DNA of 40,870 nt from positions 1 through 40,870 of the IMG/VR virus record IMGVR_UViG_3300031841_003028; one strand, given 5' to 3'. Made by a program: the position numbers and the translations under genes. The first letter of the stretch is position 1; the number at the start of each line of letters is the position of its first letter. This DNA comes from a virus. The notes beneath the pieces are model-generated. The model did no database searches. It saw only the letters and a program-made list of their open reading frames with translations, and was not told where the DNA came from. Below, piece after piece: positions 16,803 to 40,506 of this stretch.

Positions 16803-18356
16803 TCACTCCTTTGGTTTATAAAAAATTAATATTGGTTCAAATTTAAAGTAATCACCACCACGACTAAGTGGATGTGATTTTATCATTACTGAATTCTTTA
16901 CATTGGATGCATCTATACCGACCATCCTTGTCATTAACATTTTGTAAATACCTTGGTATTCACCACCAAGACTTTCCACTACATCAATACTATCTTGTTC
17001 TAATGGAATGTATTTATTACTACCTACTTTGATATCTGCAATATTCCAACACAAATATCTATCAGGTTTTAAGTAAGTGTACATTGTTTCAAGAGTTGGT
17101 CTGAGAAAGTTATCTCTCCAATCTTCATATGCACCAAACTTTTTAAAACTTTGATTCTCATCTTGTGAGTATTGTTCTCTGTTAAAGTACGGTGGTGATG
17201 TGAAAACCATATCCAAGCGTCCCTTATACGATTTAAACTTAGGATTGTTCCCAACTTCTTCACTACCCTCTCTAAATATTTCATATGTGTTTGGTTCACC
17301 TTTACCCCAAAATGGATTAGGATTAAAACAATGTTTGTTATAATAGTCGGCAACCTCTTCATATCTACCTAAGTTATCAGGATTTGGGTCAATACCAACA
17401 TAGTGAATATCTCTATCACTACTCATTGCACCAAGGATTCTACCACCCCAACCACTACTTGGGTCACATATAATTAATTTATCATCTTTGATATGTTTTG
17501 TAAAATGTTCATATAAAAACTTTGCAGTCAATGGTGGAAAGTTTACTGCAGGTTGTCCAAGTCCTAATCTAAATACTTGAAGTGCACTTGGAAAAATTCT
17601 TTGTTTTCTTTTATACTTTCTAATATAATAATGGTAATATCTTTTCTCACCATTTTTTAATTCATAACTATTTTTTAGTTCATCACCAATTGTTCTGAGA
17701 TTTTGTTCTGTCAAACAACCTGTGGTTAAGTACATTTCTACTTCACTCTTTTTTAATATAAGATATTGAGAATTTATATCTACTGGTTTGGTATCACTTT
17801 GTCTAATAACCATAATACCATAAGTTGGGTCTTGGTTAGTTTGTTTTAAGAAATCAGATACATTACTCATACCCATTTCCTTAACCTTAACACTTAAACT
17901 AAAAGTATACATTGAGTCTTTATATAGTGACCTTAACATAGCCTTCTTAAATGTTTCTCTTAGATTATCTTCTTTGAAGTGGTCATAAATAGAAGTTGCA
18001 CCTTCACTACTTACACCTGTAGATATTTTTGTTTTTAACATTGTTGGAAAGAACTGATTCACTCCACTTGCATACTTGTTGAAGTTCTTTATGACTTTTG
18101 TTTTTTCATCAAAGAACCCTTCTACATCATACCCAAATAATTTTTTCCAATTACTGATTATCTCATCTTCATTCTGACCAATAACAGGTGGTTGACCATT
18201 CTCATCCCATTGGGTAATAACATATGTACGAAGTTCATCAATCCACTTCTCTACATCTGAATCACTTTTGTGAAGTAACTCATCGTAGGTTATATTAATT
18301 GGATTGTCTTTACTCGCAATGTTAGACTTTTCATAAAACCATTTTTGTTTTTTCAT
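16803..18356 (-). CDS. Large amino-type DNA methyltransferase (517 aa)
   Basis: Two methyltransferase motifs are clear: DPSSGWGGRILGAM (about 297-310), the AdoMet loop, and FTSPPYFNREQY (from about 383), the catalytic TSPPY of N4-cytosine or N6-adenine enzymes. About 290 residues come before them, longer than a solitary methylase, and may hold target recognition. In this part a hydrophobic, charged mix with no known motif is seen. The ATG at 18356 overlaps the stop of the upstream membrane gene (TGATG), so it is probably coupled. There is no adjacent nuclease, so defence evasion or gene-expression timing is more likely than restriction-modification. Confidence 0.75.
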   Translation of the reverse strand: MKKQKWFYEKSNIASKDNPINITYDELLHKSDSDVEKWIDELRTYVITQWDENGQPPVIGQNEDEIISNWKKLFGYDVEGFFDEKTKVIKNFNKYASGVNQFFPTMLKTKISTGVSSEGATSIYDHFKEDNLRETFKKAMLRSLYKDSMYTFSLSVKVKEMGMSNVSDFLKQTNQDPTYGIMVIRQSDTKPVDINSQYLILKKSEVEMYLTTGCLTEQNLRTIGDELKNSYELKNGEKRYYHYYIRKYKRKQRIFPSALQVFRLGLGQPAVNFPPLTAKFLYEHFTKHIKDDKLIICDPSSGWGGRILGAMSSDRDIHYVGIDPNPDNLGRYEEVADYYNKHCFNPNPFWGKGEPNTYEIFREGSEEVGNNPKFKSYKGRLDMVFTSPPYFNREQYSQDENQSFKKFGAYEDWRDNFLRPTLETMYTYLKPDRYLCWNIADIKVGSNKYIPLEQDSIDVVESLGGEYQGIYKMLMTRMVGIDASNVKNSVMIKSHPLSRGGDYFKFEPILIFYKPKE

Positions 18357-18871
18357 CAATTATTATTCATTACTAAATTTGTCTTTACTATTTTTGCACT
18401 ATCAAACTTGTAAGGTTTAGTTCCTGGTGATTCTAAGATATCAATACGATTAACAAATCTTTTATTCATCGTATCTTTAACTTGGTAAACACCATCCTTA
18501 CCATCAGTTCCTTTTAAAATAATGAAATCACCATAATCTAAGAAACCACCATGTCGTTTCAGAAGATTTCTACTCACCGCTATAAATTTATATTCACTTG
18601 CCTTGTGGACTCTTATTCGCGTTCCATCCGCGAGAATGTTCGGTGTAGAATCTGTCTGACGACTAACAGGGTGATACATAGTTACCGTCACTTCCATTCC
18701 CTCTAATTTGAACTCCGATACAAGAGCATTTAATCTCTCGTTTTCTCTCTGAAGTTCAGATGTCATTACTAATATATTTTCCTTATACTTTTTAAAAATT
18801 GTTGTCCAAACAAAAGTATTAAATACCAACATTGGTATTAATATTATTATTGATAATTTTAATTTGTTCAT
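18356..18871 (-). CDS. Membrane-anchored 3D/RlpA-like double-psi barrel protein (171 aa)
   Basis: An N-terminal hydrophobic segment (about 5-25 after the chosen start) acts as an anchor. A short coil follows (ELQRENERLNALVSEFKLEG). The C-terminal half (about 80-170) has the 3D/RlpA-like double-psi beta-barrel pattern: VTVTMYHPVSRQTDSTPNIL, then ADGTRIRV and DYGDFIILKG, with a late VYQVKDTMNKRF. Such domains occur in murein-acting proteins such as lytic transglycosylases. A role in the cell envelope, perhaps in lysis or entry, is inferred. I chose ATG 18871 (AGGA eight bases upstream); ATG 18913 with GGGAGA ten bases upstream is an alternative that would add 14 residues. Confidence 0.65.
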   Translation of the reverse strand: MNKLKLSIIILIPMLVFNTFVWTTIFKKYKENILVMTSELQRENERLNALVSEFKLEGMEVTVTMYHPVSRQTDSTPNILADGTRIRVHKASEYKFIAVSRNLLKRHGGFLDYGDFIILKGTDGKDGVYQVKDTMNKRFVNRIDILESPGTKPYKFDSAKIVKTNLVMNNN

Positions 18872-18975
18872 TTCATTTTTCCTAAAGTTAAGGAAATCCT
18901 TTACAATAGTCATATATAAATATCTCCCAATGTTGTTAAAATTCATTTTAATTGTTTATAACCTATATTTTTTAG

Positions 18976-19317
18976 TGGAGCTGGCGGGAATTGAACCCGC
19001 GTCCAGCCTATTTTCCAAGTTAAGTCGTTCACAACTTAGTTGATTCCAAATCGGTAGTCACCAACAACCCACCATGTCCCATTTTACACAGAATGGTTTA
19101 ACTGAGATTTCATTTAGACTCTAAATCTGAAGTGAGTGGTCTTACCGATTCTGACGCCACATCCCATTATCGGTGTCATGGTGTGACGACTTACGAACTA
19201 AGCGTAAGCAAAATTGACTTGATTGTCAATTAGAATTGTGAGTCTTTTCTGAACGAGACATACTCAATCTCTGTTGCACTCAATCCCTTCCAATACCTGT
19301 CAATACCAGTCAGCCCC
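18976..19317 (-). ncRNA. ssrA: tmRNA, one-piece (ssrA-type), phage-encoded
   Basis: The 5' end GGGGCUG (19317-19311) pairs over seven bases with the 3' end CAGCUCC (18977-18983), followed by an A discriminator. The D-loop-like ACUGGUAUUGACAGG resembles the tmRNA consensus. The T-arm reads GCGGG-UUCAAUU-CCCGC. About 90 bases in, an open tag frame ends in DNQVNFAYA and a UAG stop, a typical hydrophobic alanine-ended degron. The resume codon is not assigned with certainty. The 3' CCA is not encoded. After the tag the molecule contains several inverted repeats, as expected for pseudoknots. tmRNA rescues stalled ribosomes and tags their products for proteolysis. It is 342 nt and not permuted. Confidence 0.93.
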
Positions 19318-19320
19318 ATA

Positions 19321-19479
19321 TTAATCAATCTCATCATGGTCATCTTCCCATTCAAATACTTCGTCACCTTCACCTATCGTGATGTGAGTATCTAACACAT
19401 CTATTAAATCTTCAACGATGTTCCAATCTTCTTGATTGTACGCTTCTTCTAATCTTTTTTTAATTTCTACCAAGGACAT
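19321..19479 (-). CDS. Acidic microprotein beside tmRNA (52 aa)
   Basis: The protein opens MSLVEIKKRLEEAYNQEDWN and is strongly acidic at its end (EWEDDHDEID). It has no hydrophobic segment and would be mostly helical. AGGAGT lies six bases before the ATG. It overlaps the end of the secreted-protein gene by 20 bases, and its stop is three bases from the 5' end of the tmRNA, so it is probably co-transcribed with it. Function unknown. Confidence 0.65.
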   Translation of the reverse strand: MSLVEIKKRLEEAYNQEDWNIVEDLIDVLDTHITIGEGDEVFEWEDDHDEID

Positions 19480-20050
19480 ATTCTACTCCTATTTTAAATT
19501 TATAGTATTTCCTACCTTTGATATCATTATAATCAAAGATATTAGTAAGTATCAACTTCTCTGATATTTTCCAATTAATTTGTGCATAATCTTCCATATC
19601 AAAACGATTTTCACCAGTTAATTCATCTCTGAAATAATAACCATCCCATTTTACTTCCATTGAGAATTTATCATTAATTTCTTTTTTTCTTTGAACACCT
19701 ATAGATATACCACTTTCAAATTGTTTATCTGAATATAATCCAGTATATCCAATTGAGTAATCACCATTACGATAACGAATATCAGCCTTACCATATTGTA
19801 AATCACGAGATGTTTTATTAACATATTGTGGTTTAAAATAAAAGTTCTTAGGTTCCCATTCAAACCATACCTCATCATCAATATAAGATTGTCCTAACTC
19901 TCGTTCCCAATCTCGTTTCAGATATATGTTTTCATTTTTAAAACCAAGTGCAACTTCGTAATCATCTTTAAGGATGGATTCATCATTTGGTGTTCTCATA
20001 CTGAATGATGTGAATAATATTAATCCACTTAATAAACTTTGTAACATCAT
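19460..20050 (-). CDS. Exported beta-strand-rich protein, possible outer-membrane barrel (196 aa)
   Basis: The first 20 residues (MMLQSLLSGLILFTSFSMRT) look like a signal peptide. The rest is alternating polar/hydrophobic strand sequence with many Tyr, Phe and Trp residues (FYFKPQYVN, YSIGYTGLY, FKIGVEYVLGRN), the pattern of a small outer-membrane beta-barrel. It ends in a strand, as barrels do, but not in the usual terminal Phe. It overlaps the small membrane-protein gene upstream by four bases. A phage-encoded surface protein could alter the host envelope, for example in superinfection exclusion; this is inference. A lysis accessory is the main alternative. Confidence 0.6.
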   Translation of the reverse strand: MMLQSLLSGLILFTSFSMRTPNDESILKDDYEVALGFKNENIYLKRDWERELGQSYIDDEVWFEWEPKNFYFKPQYVNKTSRDLQYGKADIRYRNGDYSIGYTGLYSDKQFESGISIGVQRKKEINDKFSMEVKWDGYYFRDELTGENRFDMEDYAQINWKISEKLILTNIFDYNDIKGRKYYKFKIGVEYVLGRN

Positions 20051-21976: not shown

Positions 21977-22079
21977 AAAATCTCTCGTCAAATAATAATA
22001 CATAGATTGATATCAATCCTATAATACCAACAACCACTCCAATAATAATTTGAAACAATGTAAACAATGCACTAAACAT
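21969..22079 (-). CDS. Membrane microprotein (36 aa)
   Basis: The protein is almost one transmembrane helix (LFTLFQIIIGVVVGIIGLIS), with a short acidic end (FDERFYG). GAGGGAA lies about six bases before ATG 22079, which coincides with the stop of the peptide deformylase gene. Its end overlaps the next small gene by eight bases. Not recognised. Confidence 0.6.
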   Translation of the reverse strand: MFSALFTLFQIIIGVVVGIIGLISIYVLLFDERFYG

Positions 22080-22738
22080 TATTGTTCCCTCTTCCAATCT
22101 TCATATAACATCCAATCTCCACTTTGTATGAACTTCTGAGCCTTCTTCCATTTCATCTTTGTAACAACATTCATATGTCCACCACCAATAAGTTCTACAA
22201 TTTCATTACGACCAATCTTTTTCGTATCTCGTTTATAAGTTGTTTGAATCTTTCTGTCCATACATATAATACCATTCAAGTGGTCAATCTCGTGTTGTAC
22301 ACATACTGATTCTAACAACCTTAAGTTCCTATCATCACCACCATCTTTTTCCCAACTACCTTTACCTTCTGTATTAGTCTCAACACCACTAAATATCATA
22401 GAACCCTCAACGCCTTCCGAGATAACCTCTATAGTCTCATATCTTTTAGTATTGACACCTTTCTTTGGGTAACTTAAACAACCCTCGTAATATGTTATTT
22501 CATTTTCTTTTCTGATAATTTTTGGGTTAATGAGAACCAAAGGTTCAAGAACATTGACAACGGCCACTTGTGCATCAATTCCCACTTGATTAGCTGCCAA
22601 CCCAATACCGTCTTTTCTTTTGTTAAGTATCTGAAATAATTCTGTTGCAATAGTTCTTCCTTCTTCAAGTGAAACCTCTTTTAGTTTTTTATTAATTAAA
22701 GGATTATCATGTTTTAAACAATTAATTACTTGTTTCAT
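22079..22738 (-). CDS. def: Peptide deformylase (219 aa)
   Basis: All three deformylase motifs are present: GIGLAANQ at about 44-51, EGCLSYP at 85-91 with the metal Cys, and QHEIDHLNG at 148-156 with the metal pair and catalytic Glu. The enzyme removes the formyl group from new proteins. A segment of about 30 residues (about 110-140, with SWEKDGGDD) is inserted between the second and third motifs, and a C-terminal extension of about 60 residues follows; phage deformylases are usually shorter. The start 22738 has AAGGAAA six bases upstream and overlaps the UvdE gene by 17 bases. Deformylase genes are known in marine phages, where they are thought to help phage-driven protein turnover. Confidence 0.92.
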   Translation of the reverse strand: MKQVINCLKHDNPLINKKLKEVSLEEGRTIATELFQILNKRKDGIGLAANQVGIDAQVAVVNVLEPLVLINPKIIRKENEITYYEGCLSYPKKGVNTKRYETIEVISEGVEGSMIFSGVETNTEGKGSWEKDGGDDRNLRLLESVCVQHEIDHLNGIICMDRKIQTTYKRDTKKIGRNEIVELIGGGHMNVVTKMKWKKAQKFIQSGDWMLYEDWKREQ

Positions 22739-23678
22739 ATGTTTCCTTATATTGTTGAACTGCCAATTCTTTTGCTTTTGCCTCAACCATAATATCAATC
22801 CTATGACCATATGTATTAATGTAATCAGTAATATAATCTGAATGAGCTTGTGGTCTGATACTTTCATCCAATTGTTCTCTTCTACGAGATTCAGAGTAAT
22901 GAACTGCTGGGACAATATCATCAGGCCATGTTGAGATAGCCAACTCTAATGCTTTTTGTTCTGTTAAGTCACCTGTACAGAAACCATGGTGATGATAATC
23001 AAACACAATTGGAATACCAATTCGTTTGTAAATACCATCATACAAATCTTGTACTGAATACATACTTGCCTTATCATCATTCTCAACCGTAAGTCTTGTC
23101 TGAACTGATTCTGGTAGTCGTTCAAAGTTTTTACAAAATCTTTCCATAGCAGATTGTTTATCTCCATAGACACCACCCAAGTGAATGTTAATCTTGTTGT
23201 ATGGTGTTCTTGATAACCCCATCATATCAAACTCATCACCATGAATAGTCAAGTCTTTGATACAATTCTCAACAACATGTTCATGTGGTGATACCAATAC
23301 ATTGAAAGGGCCAGGATGAGAAGTCAACCTAACTCCATGAGTAGTAGCCATTGTACCTACTGAATGAAACCATTGTTTGATTTCTTTAATATCTTTTAGG
23401 TCTTCCCATTCGTACTCAGTTTTCCATGGTGACATATCTGATGATATACGAAAGAAGTCGTAACCATTAGTAATGTTCCATGCCACAATCTTATGTAGGT
23501 CTTTTACATTTTGTAAACAAATTTCTGATGCATAATCTACACCTTTCTCATCAAAAGTTCTACGAATCATACTACGATTGGTAGTAATTCTTTCAGTTCC
23601 TCGTGGTTGATTACCATACTTAGTAGGATAACTAAGTTGCATATTGATACATGCATAACCGATTTTATTATTTACCAT
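22722..23678 (-). CDS. uvdE: UV damage endonuclease, UvdE type (318 aa)
   Basis: The sequence follows the UvdE TIM-barrel: NKIGYACINMQL at the start, DFFRISSDMSPW, RLTSHPGPFNVL, KINIHLGGVYGDK (about 164-176), RLTVENDDKASMY and FDYHHHGFCTG. These supply the His, Asp and Glu residues that bind the metal cluster. The enzyme nicks DNA 5' to pyrimidine dimers and other lesions without light. The length, 318, matches the family. It is the first gene after promoter 23759-23787. Repair of UV damage suits a surface-water phage. Confidence 0.9.
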   Translation of the reverse strand: MVNNKIGYACINMQLSYPTKYGNQPRGTERITTNRSMIRRTFDEKGVDYASEICLQNVKDLHKIVAWNITNGYDFFRISSDMSPWKTEYEWEDLKDIKEIKQWFHSVGTMATTHGVRLTSHPGPFNVLVSPHEHVVENCIKDLTIHGDEFDMMGLSRTPYNKINIHLGGVYGDKQSAMERFCKNFERLPESVQTRLTVENDDKASMYSVQDLYDGIYKRIGIPIVFDYHHHGFCTGDLTEQKALELAISTWPDDIVPAVHYSESRRREQLDESIRPQAHSDYITDYINTYGHRIDIMVEAKAKELAVQQYKETYETSN

Positions 23679-24693: not shown

Positions 24694-24711
24694 TTTCTTA
24701 TCCTAAATTTG

Positions 24712-24785
24712 AGGGCAGGATAGGATTTGAACCTACGAACAATGGATTTGCAATCCACCCCATTAGACCACTCTGGCACCTGCCC
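24712..24785 (-). tRNA. trnC: tRNA-Cys (GCA)
   Basis: A complete 74-nt cloverleaf. GGGCAGG at the 5' end pairs with CCUGCCC at the 3' end. The anticodon stem GUGGA/UCCAU encloses UUGCAAA, with anticodon GCA reading UGU and UGC. The T arm has UUCAAAU, and the discriminator is U. CCA is not encoded. The 5' 23 bases lie under the stop end of the SWIM-type gene. Confidence 0.93.
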
Positions 24786-38233: not shown

Positions 38234-38844
38234 ATTATATCTACTCCATTGATAAATATATTATCCAATACTGAAAAATAGTTTTTTGTTTTATAATCAA
38301 TATACTCTAATTTGATATCATTAAATAAACTTTCATCAATATAATTTGTTGCACTTGGGCCTGATACATAATGTGTTCCACCAAGTTCTTTTATTAATTG
38401 AACTAATCTTTCTGATGAATTTCCTTTTAGATTAAAGTCTTCTGAATAATAAAACTCTGTATTGATGTTTAAGGTTTTAGAAATCTTTTTCATAGTGTAC
38501 CGATTTAACTCGTATAGATATTTCCAATCTTGTAAATAGAAATCTAATAAATGTTTATATTGGTTAAAGTATTTTTCTTTACCATATTTCTGTACAATAC
38601 TTTTATAATGTTTCTTTTTCCAATTAATTTTATTACATATTTTAATATCAATTATATTTGTATCTAAACTTTCTCTATGAATTGGAACTGATAACCATTG
38701 ATTAGGTCTAATCTTATTTCGTGTTCTCCAATCTTGTTTGGTGAATTGTACATTGTCGTAAAAGACAAACTTATCTACTGAATTAATTAATTCAAATACA
38801 CCAGTCCAAGGTAGGTAATTACTTTGTAGTATTGCTATCTTCAT
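38230..38844 (-). CDS. wbqC: WbqC-like protein (204 aa)
   Basis: The start MKIAILQSNYLPWTGVFELI and the following FVFYDNVQFTKQDWRTRNKI are the WbqC family signature. The C-terminal half (RLVQLIKELGGTHYVSGPSA) also fits. WbqC proteins lie in O-antigen and other surface-glycan clusters and are thought to take part in modified-sugar synthesis; the reaction is not settled. I start at ATG 38844 because it matches the family N-terminus; earlier ATGs would add up to eight residues. It overlaps both neighbours. Confidence 0.8.
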   Translation of the reverse strand: MKIAILQSNYLPWTGVFELINSVDKFVFYDNVQFTKQDWRTRNKIRPNQWLSVPIHRESLDTNIIDIKICNKINWKKKHYKSIVQKYGKEKYFNQYKHLLDFYLQDWKYLYELNRYTMKKISKTLNINTEFYYSEDFNLKGNSSERLVQLIKELGGTHYVSGPSATNYIDESLFNDIKLEYIDYKTKNYFSVLDNIFINGVDII

Positions 38845-39904
38845 CAAACATTTCATCCCAATTGTCATCCCAATATGGTTGAGTTAATCTTGCACCATAA
38901 GAATCGGTATACATATAATCTGTATTAAAACTTCCAGTTTGTATTATATTACCATCTTTACCATACTCTACAAATGTTCCTGTATTTTGGTCTTCTTCTA
39001 ACCAAAGGGTTCCATCAGTATAAAACTCTAATTGTGTTCCATAGTGTTCATTATCTTTCCAATTTCTTACAATCTTTAATTTACCATTTGGCCACCAACT
39101 TAAAGATTTACCATCAGTTCGTTTACCATCTTTATAATTCCATTCATATCTCTTGACACCATTTGGCCAATATAATGTGAATGTCCCATCAATAGGTGTT
39201 TCATAATGTATCCCAACTTCCCTATCCATTTGATTAGCAAATCTATCATGTAGTATTGGGTCAATATTCCAATTCTCAATGTTATGAAAATACTCACCAT
39301 CATACCATTTGTATCCAATATATAATTGTGAGTAATCATTCCAAGTATCTTTATCACACCAATTGATTATTAATATTCTTCTCTTACCTTTAAATTCTTC
39401 TGGTGTAAACGCATGCCACCTTTTAATCTTATTAGAATTTTTCCAACCCACACCACCATTTGGTTTCCAATCTAACTTTGTATGTAATGTGGTCTCATCA
39501 CTATATAAGTCTGTTGCTAAGTTTTGTTCATCATCTTTATCTATATAAAGTAATATAGATAATAACTTTTCATCTAAGTCGGTATGTACTTCAAGTTCAA
39601 ATGGATATCTATCATCTACTAATTCAGGTCGTAAATAACAATTTGATAAGTCCACATCAAATACATCTTCCCACATTTTTCTATCATTTATAGATTCCAT
39701 TAGACTTCTAAATTGTGGATTCTCGTCTACAAATTTATCATTAAGGAAAACTCTATTATCAACACTCTTCCTTTTTAATCCATCTATATTACTATAGTCT
39801 GAATCTAATTCAGAATAATTTAATAATAAATTAAATTCATTTTTGTCCAAAACATTTTCAAATAAAAAATGTTCCCAAGGTTCATTTACTTTTTTTGATT
39901 TCAT
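38819..39904 (-). CDS. 2OG oxygenase fused to YwqK/MORN-like repeats (361 aa)
   Basis: The N-terminal part (about 80-190) has a prolyl-hydroxylase-like oxygenase pattern: FELEVHTDLDEKLLSILLYI with HxD near 107, then RWHAFTPEEFKGKRRILIIN with the distal His near 163 and an Arg for 2-oxoglutarate. From about 240, short repeats of the form W/Y-x-NG-x4 (TLYWPNGVKRYEWNYKDGKR, then SWWPNGKLK and LEFYTDGTLW) are YwqK/MORN-like. The start at 39904 overlaps the previous stop (ATGA). The fusion is unusual; the repeats may bind the substrate or a partner. Confidence 0.7.
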   Translation of the reverse strand: MKSKKVNEPWEHFLFENVLDKNEFNLLLNYSELDSDYSNIDGLKRKSVDNRVFLNDKFVDENPQFRSLMESINDRKMWEDVFDVDLSNCYLRPELVDDRYPFELEVHTDLDEKLLSILLYIDKDDEQNLATDLYSDETTLHTKLDWKPNGGVGWKNSNKIKRWHAFTPEEFKGKRRILIINWCDKDTWNDYSQLYIGYKWYDGEYFHNIENWNIDPILHDRFANQMDREVGIHYETPIDGTFTLYWPNGVKRYEWNYKDGKRTDGKSLSWWPNGKLKIVRNWKDNEHYGTQLEFYTDGTLWLEEDQNTGTFVEYGKDGNIIQTGSFNTDYMYTDSYGARLTQPYWDDNWDEMFDEDSNTTK

Positions 39905-40506
39905 TTTTGTATTACTCCATTCAGATAGTCTGCCCATAATTTATGTGACTCTTTCGTTGGGTGACCATCAAACCCTCTCGTCATTGATTCACCATTATTA
40001 ATACAATAACTTCTAAAGTTTAACTCTTCATCAAATAAACTTGGAAAGGTTTCTTTATCAATAAGTTTAATATAATCAATATAATCTTTTCTATTGATAG
40101 TATCAAATGTTAAGAAAAAGAAAAACTTCTTTTGATTGTATTTCAAATAATTCTGTAATGTTAAAACTTGGTTTATAAAGTTTAAGTAAAACCAATCATC
40201 CTTAAACCATTGTAATTGGTTATTGATTGTCTTGTTCATACTTTTAAACTTTTCACCACCTGTTGGATTTTGTTTTATCCACTCATCATAATAATATTCA
40301 TATCTATAGATAGATGTCCAACCAATTATATAATAGTCGTATTCTAAGTCTCGGTCTAATGTTGTTCTTAAGATATATTGATTACTTATACCACATTGTG
40401 CATCGTTGGTTACATCACCATTTAATAAATATGGAAAGGCCTCATTCTCTCTATCCTTTAATTCATCACCATATACAAAACTACAACCATTAGTATATAT
40501 CTTCAT
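39901..40506 (-). CDS. SGNH/GDSL-hydrolase-like protein (201 aa)
   Basis: The N-terminus KIYTNGCSFVYGDELKDREN holds the block-I-like GCSF serine. The C-terminus FDGHPTKESHKLWADYL has the D-x-x-H pair of block V (DGHPT). The middle is aromatic and Lys-rich and not diagnostic. SGNH proteins remove or transfer acyl groups, often on glycans. The start is set at ATG 40506, with GAGG about seven bases upstream; it overlaps the sulfotransferase gene. Confidence 0.7.
   Translation of the reverse strand: MKIYTNGCSFVYGDELKDRENEAFPYLLNGDVTNDAQCGISNQYILRTTLDRDLEYDYYIIGWTSIYRYEYYYDEWIKQNPTGGEKFKSMNKTINNQLQWFKDDWFYLNFINQVLTLQNYLKYNQKKFFFFLTFDTINRKDYIDYIKLIDKETFPSLFDEELNFRSYCINNGESMTRGFDGHPTKESHKLWADYLNGVIQK

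Follow-up and report, generated by a model that had tools for sequence, protein, structure and literature searches.

tmRNA releases ribosomes that have stalled and adds a tag to their incomplete proteins. During trans-translation, alanine is added ahead of the encoded tag, and the G3·U70 pair of the acceptor stem is the identity element recognized by alanyl-tRNA synthetase (AlaRS). A tmRNA typically contains four pseudoknots. ARAGORN is the tool behind most surveys of phage tmRNAs, and SAR406 (Ca. Neomarinimicrobiota), to which much of what follows refers, is a widespread marine phylum. Phage tmRNAs are already known from Bacillus phage G, the mycobacteriophages Bxz1 and Wildcat and others, ten named phages in all (PMC4131195), and also from huge phages (PMC7162821). 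A survey found tmRNA in 402 of 18,146 phage genomes, one-piece forms being rarely marine, and the marine phages Melnitz and Mosig were described with a two-piece permuted tmRNA (PMC9004378). Two departures from the ordinary form have been reported: an extended tag ending in AFA in Mycoplasma, alongside the loss of ClpXP (PMC3985003), and a tmRNA consisting of the TLD only in mycobacteriophage DS6A, which was reported to inhibit tmRNA (PMC4131195).

The locus described here lies in an IMG/VR virus record (G000) that comes from an uncultured ocean phage, spans 40,870 bases and carries no completeness estimate; "the window" refers to this whole stretch of DNA. As in phage G, Bxz1, Wildcat and the huge phages, the ssrA gene is part of a phage genome, but phage group and host differ, a microprotein gene is linked to it, and the tag ends in AYA. 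As with Melnitz and Mosig, the phage of the window is a marine T4-like myophage that encodes its own tmRNA; here the tmRNA is unpermuted, and nothing seen indicates a SAR11 or other alphaproteobacterial host. The standard tmRNA of SAR406 (RF00023) agrees with that of the window in its covariance match over the full length, its G3·U70 acceptor and T-arm, its nine-residue tag with stop codon and its one-piece order; the window's tmRNA differs in being phage-borne, in its separate clade and lower score, in its acceptor sequence (GGGGCUG against GGGGGCG) and in its resume codon (Asp, Gly in sister phages, mostly Ala in SAR406). The extended Mycoplasma tag, being long and altered at its C-terminus, is the nearest precedent of the long tags of sister phages, whereas the window's own tag is short. 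To our knowledge, the Mycoplasma sequence is unrelated to the phage long tags. The DS6A form resembles a tagless 121-nt RNA in one relative, while the tmRNA of the window has a full tag. Phage tmRNA as such is already known; judged by the open-licence literature searched, a single lineage that combines a linked microprotein with long-tag and tagless forms appears new.

Table 1. Coordinates of the tmRNA gene, its parts and its neighbours in the window.
Feature	Position	Strand	Basis or remark
One-piece tmRNA	18976..19317	-	RF00023, 99 bits over full length; acceptor and T-stem covariation in 44 phage tmRNAs
Acceptor stem, 5' strand GGGGCUG	19311..19317	-	Pairs with CAGCUCC 18983-18977; G3·U70
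Acceptor stem, 3' strand CAGCUCC	18977..18983	-	A73 at 18976; sequence
T-arm GCGGG-UUCAAUU-CCCGC	18984..19000	-	RF00023 alignment and compensatory T-stem changes
Tag frame, resume codon GAC, DNQVNFAYA, stop UAG	19198..19227	-	GAC aligned on the RF00023 consensus resume codon; codons 19227-19198: GAC AAU CAA GUC AAU UUU GCU UAC GCU UAG
Acidic microprotein gene, 52 aa, MSLVEIKKRLEEAYNQEDWNIVEDLIDVLDTHITIGEGDEVFEWEDDHDEID	19321..19479	-	Stop codon ends 3 nt ahead of the tmRNA
Shine-Dalgarno-like AGGAG of the microprotein	19486..19490	-	Sequence
Exported or membrane-anchored protein, 196 aa, 3' of the tmRNA	18356..18946	-	N-terminal membrane/signal segment; 63% identical syntenic homologue beside the G016 tmRNA
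Upstream neighbour gene, 196 aa	19460..20050	-	Homologue likewise flanks the G016 tmRNA
Candidate promoter TTGATA-18-TATAAT of the microprotein-tmRNA unit	19526..19555	-	Consensus match 11/12

The tmRNA gene (342 nt without CCA) had been predicted from the sequence alone as a complete, one-piece, phage-encoded tmRNA, and the covariance search bore this out. The Rfam model RF00023 (374 positions, gathering cut-off 47 bits) matched 19317-18973 on the minus strand end to end, from model position 1 to 374, with 99.0 bits and an E-value of 1.2e-37. The predicted bounds were exact to the base, from the first G at 19317 to the discriminator A73 at 18976, only the minus strand having been left unstated, and the matching acceptor stem, the T-arm and the DNQVNFAYA frame were all read in the sequence. 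The acceptor stem consists of 7 bp with G3·U70 and A73. The next bases, 18975-18973, are CUA, so CCA is not encoded and must be added. In the RF00023 alignment, the 5' half, the tag and the 3' half stand in standard order, which rules out a two-piece permuted RNA of the alphaproteobacterial type. The interior pseudoknots fall in mid-alignment, where posterior probability is low, and the single-sequence fold (z -1.7) is of a kind that cannot show pseudoknots. ARAGORN did not call the tmRNA in the window, and of the 44 phage tmRNAs on which it was run it failed to detect 10.

The window was assigned to a T4-like myovirus, of which it is a fragment, because baseplate wedge and PhoH genes are present; direct DNA similarity to isolated phages was not detected. 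Both neighbours named in the original prediction, a protein with an N-terminal membrane or signal segment and a microprotein, are present beside the tmRNA. A large relative, G016, shows extensive synteny with the window and carries its tmRNA between homologues of the same two flanking genes (Table 1). Elsewhere in the window are a peptide deformylase-like gene (22079-22921, minus strand, phrog_2890), which is a second translation-related gene of the fragment, a phage-borne protein with MORN_2 repeats (38819-39937, minus strand) and a tRNA-Cys(GCA) gene (24711-24785, minus strand); the only other Rfam match in the window was a tRNA, called tRNA-Cys by ARAGORN.

Relatives were gathered with the PhoH protein of the window, giving 71 related viral loci, and a tmRNA above the RF00023 cut-off was found in 23 of 50 whole records of these relatives. 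The same query found no relative in GTDB genomes. A search of IMG/VR with the tag pattern gave no match, the pattern being too strict because the resume codon and residues vary among relatives. Covariation was assessed on 44 phage tmRNAs, the window included and some of them near-copies. G3·U70 is kept in all 44, acceptor pair 5-68 occurs as C-G, G-C, A-U or U-A, and the T stem varies in a compensatory manner, which in a comparison of sequences is strong evidence for a maintained tRNA-like domain. Tag frames are readable in nearly all relatives, and the majority of phage tags have the C-terminus AYA or AYAA. The near-identical sister L400 has the resume codon GGC and the tag GNQVNFAYA, so the Asp resume codon of the window is one base away from GGC.

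The origin of these RNAs was examined with a quick maximum-likelihood tree, tag columns removed, of 36 phage, 79 SAR406 and 8 other FCB tmRNAs. The phage tmRNAs formed one group (SH-aLRT 99) apart from the 87 host tmRNAs, and the window's tmRNA was placed beside the long-tag tmRNAs, with support of 89 and 83 and a long end branch. By this phylogeny, the phage tmRNAs are an old phage lineage; recent capture from the host is disfavoured by a tree that was quick and has long end branches, the window's among them. The donor lineage that the original prediction hoped to locate by comparison with bacterial tmRNAs is, on this tree, an old lineage of phage tmRNAs.

That the gene is a functionless relic or hitchhiker of a host tmRNA gene is scarcely credible. 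The missing ARAGORN call and a score below those of the host tmRNAs would suit such a relic, but the separate grouping, the compensatory pairs, the conserved tag end and a neighbour gene that is both fixed and under selection speak against it.

This neighbour, the microprotein, has a dN/dS of 0.04-0.10 against three relatives. When viral contigs were searched with the microprotein family alone, 22 loci were recovered, and a tmRNA lies downstream in all 22, at 3-7 nt in 18 and at 75-135 nt in four; all of them come from related phages, so the linkage is shown for one lineage only. No second copy of the microprotein occurs in the window, G016 or G058. In L007 about 1 kb separates its gene from the tmRNA; in L022, a record without a tmRNA match, a distant relative of it is found near the record end. 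The candidate promoter of the unit is weak, because promoter-like sites in the region are as many as expected from shuffled sequence, and a terminator-like stem-loop was not found near the tmRNA. The AlphaFold model (mean pLDDT 77.7) is a hairpin of two helices whose acidic tail is disordered. This model is unlike SmpB, and the microprotein was rejected as an SmpB look-alike. Comparison with phage proteins, PHROG and PDB folds gave no convincing match, none being significant among solved structures.

The position of the microprotein stop codon 3-7 nt before the RNase P cut, or inside the tmRNA acceptor stem as in L165, L166 and L172, implies that maturation of the tmRNA would shorten the microprotein mRNA to or past its stop. 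By analogy, this may create a feedback loop of the ArfA type, in which trans-translation represses the nonstop mRNA of ArfA (PMC10107115). The geometry was not accepted as proof of feedback: an unrelated protein likewise ends 1-3 nt before the tmRNA in another subgroup, so close packing of genes could account for it by itself. A SAR406-phage cassette in which the co-transcribed microprotein aids the tmRNA as adaptor, protease modulator or regulator, with ArfA-like feedback, and in which the long tags of sister phages redirect stalled proteins to a partner outside the host's degradation route, is entertained as a tentative and rather doubtful extension.

The original prediction presupposed an alphaproteobacterial host and took the one-piece form as a sign of a different host lineage. 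Nothing was found that points to an alphaproteobacterium, and the evidence leads to SAR406, whose own tmRNAs are one-piece: among 245 SAR406 genomes, 177 show an ordinary one-piece tmRNA (standard tmRNA counted at E <= 1e-25), so this form is what a SAR406 host uses. In the SAR406 genome bin G267, contig C60 is syntenic with the window and its relative G058, and contig C77 carries a 451-nt tmRNA with the long tag GDNSLDGLVIDWHLAEYDYSPMVPVSNDEPTYAYA, while the bin's own tmRNA has the tag ADYGYAAAA. Two large relatives have a gene for a TonB-dependent receptor that contains a CarboxypepD_reg domain; the best genome matches of this receptor are in SAR406 (most 56-66% identity, top 66%). The receptor genes (L184:5267-8056, minus strand; L191:3599-6337, plus strand) belong to T4-like phages and are 83% identical to each other; perhaps they serve for receptor replacement or as a superinfection block. 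AYA or AYAA ends about 19 of the 79 SAR406 tags read by script (for example ADYGQFAYA, ANYGNVAYA and ADNYAYAA) and none of the 8 tags of other FCB genomes, which end in LAA or MAA. The original prediction suggested that the phage RNA may recode or override the host tagging system; the tag of the window resembles host tags in its C-terminus and differs in its N-terminal part. SAR406 is therefore very probably the host of the window's phage, with some reserve because contigs may be misassigned in binning and the connection concerns the phage group as a whole; it draws on one binned genome, gene similarity and tag ends, which come mainly from relatives and not from the window itself. Second, divergent tmRNAs were also seen in two SAR406 bins, L396 (G130:C208:176162-176529, tag read as DESVHMLQAA) and L394 (G272:C9:8407-8738, tag read as ANNNLHFEQRLAA), possibly from prophages or other phages.

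In sister phages the tag has taken other forms. A pattern search found long tags of 34-42 aa in 44 stretches of viral DNA (long-tag records: L103-L146, L075, L084, L088, L089, L091-L093), and 35 of the 36 long-tag records searched were above the RF00023 cut-off. The conserved core of these tags is SLxGLxIDWHLAEYDY, and they finish in sequences such as QPSYAYAA. Across 27 distinct cores, pS was 0.44 and pN 0.065 (pN/pS 0.15, or 0.06 without two free positions), and the long-tag peptide itself is therefore selected; some of the invariant codons also sit in small hairpins. No convincing counterpart of the long tag was found among isolated phages or in the PDB. ClpP-like genes occur in two long-tag phages, L385 (G048:C1:79453-79947) and L386 (G016:C1:85869-86330), with Ser-His-Asp motifs recognized by eye. 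Present in just 2 of 33 records, phage ClpP was dismissed as a general partner of the tmRNA. In L095 (G035:C1:29775-29895), the tmRNA-like RNA is 121 nt long and tagless, with acceptor and T-arm intact. It begins at the stop codon of the preceding gene, a tRNA (anticodon TGC by eye) follows it, and the protein gene before it resembles the gene preceding full tmRNAs in its subgroup.

The selection on the long-tag core would fit a retagging device, in which the phage tmRNA outcompetes that of the host and a different tag leads the product to another protease or adaptor, or protects it, the long tags being the elaborated version. The listed SAR406 tmRNAs (346-390 nt) include none long enough for a tag of 34-42 aa, and the two phage ClpP-like genes and the extended tag of Mycoplasma (PMC3985003) lean the same way; yet in the window itself the tag is short, with a host-like end, and ClpP was seen in only those two of 33 records. 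Retagging is considered unlikely for this tmRNA. Far less probable is a decoy: the phage RNA would sequester SmpB and inhibit trans-translation by the host, the effect reported for the tmRNA of DS6A (PMC4131195). The RNA of L095, placed like the full tmRNAs of its subgroup, would suit that role, but the window and nearly all relatives have a full tag frame with a stop codon and a conserved tag end.

The search for a phage SmpB suggested by the original prediction found none in 29 phage records (the window and 28 related ones), although the window is a 40.9-kb fragment and SmpB could exist elsewhere in the phage. SmpB was found in 13 of 14 SAR406 genomes; it was not found in G267, the bin with phage contigs, which is probably a partial assembly. 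Given this absence from the phage records and presence in SAR406, the simplest mechanism would be trans-translation in which the phage RNA relies on the SmpB, AlaRS, RNase P and proteases of its host, and use of the host SmpB is likely. We regard it as probable that the gene encodes a functional one-piece tmRNA, belongs to an old lineage of SAR406 phages and acts in ribosome rescue and tagging with host SmpB. Counted against this explanation are the D-loop region GGUAUUGAC, which differs from the usual GGNUUCGAC, the poor alignment of the interior pseudoknots, and the score of 99 bits, far under the 165-207 bits of host tmRNAs. The RNA anatomy and its conservation, the microprotein linkage, the lack of SmpB in the phage records searched, and the SmpB and one-piece tmRNA of SAR406 are observed; processing, charging, the partnership with host SmpB, tagging, the protease step and the phage benefit are inferred. 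The tmRNA would probably be co-transcribed with the upstream microprotein, and host RNase P would free its 5' end. After completion of CCA, host AlaRS would charge it with alanine through G3·U70, and in the infected cell host SmpB would bring it to ribosomes that have stopped on truncated mRNAs, where A-DNQVNFAYA would be added to the stalled chain. The AYA end resembles degrons of part of the SAR406 phylum, and host proteases may destroy the product while the freed ribosomes return to phage translation. The benefit to the phage could be more rescue capacity while mRNAs are cut, amino-acid recycling or retagging.

Phage tmRNAs are rare and those described from marine phages are mostly two-piece, whereas here a one-piece family is present in SAR406-linked phages. 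Members with short, very long or no tags lend themselves to comparison on a single tree, and the co-encoded microprotein gives access to the use that phages make of ribosome rescue. How the tag evolved as a targeting signal becomes testable with reporters in E. coli.
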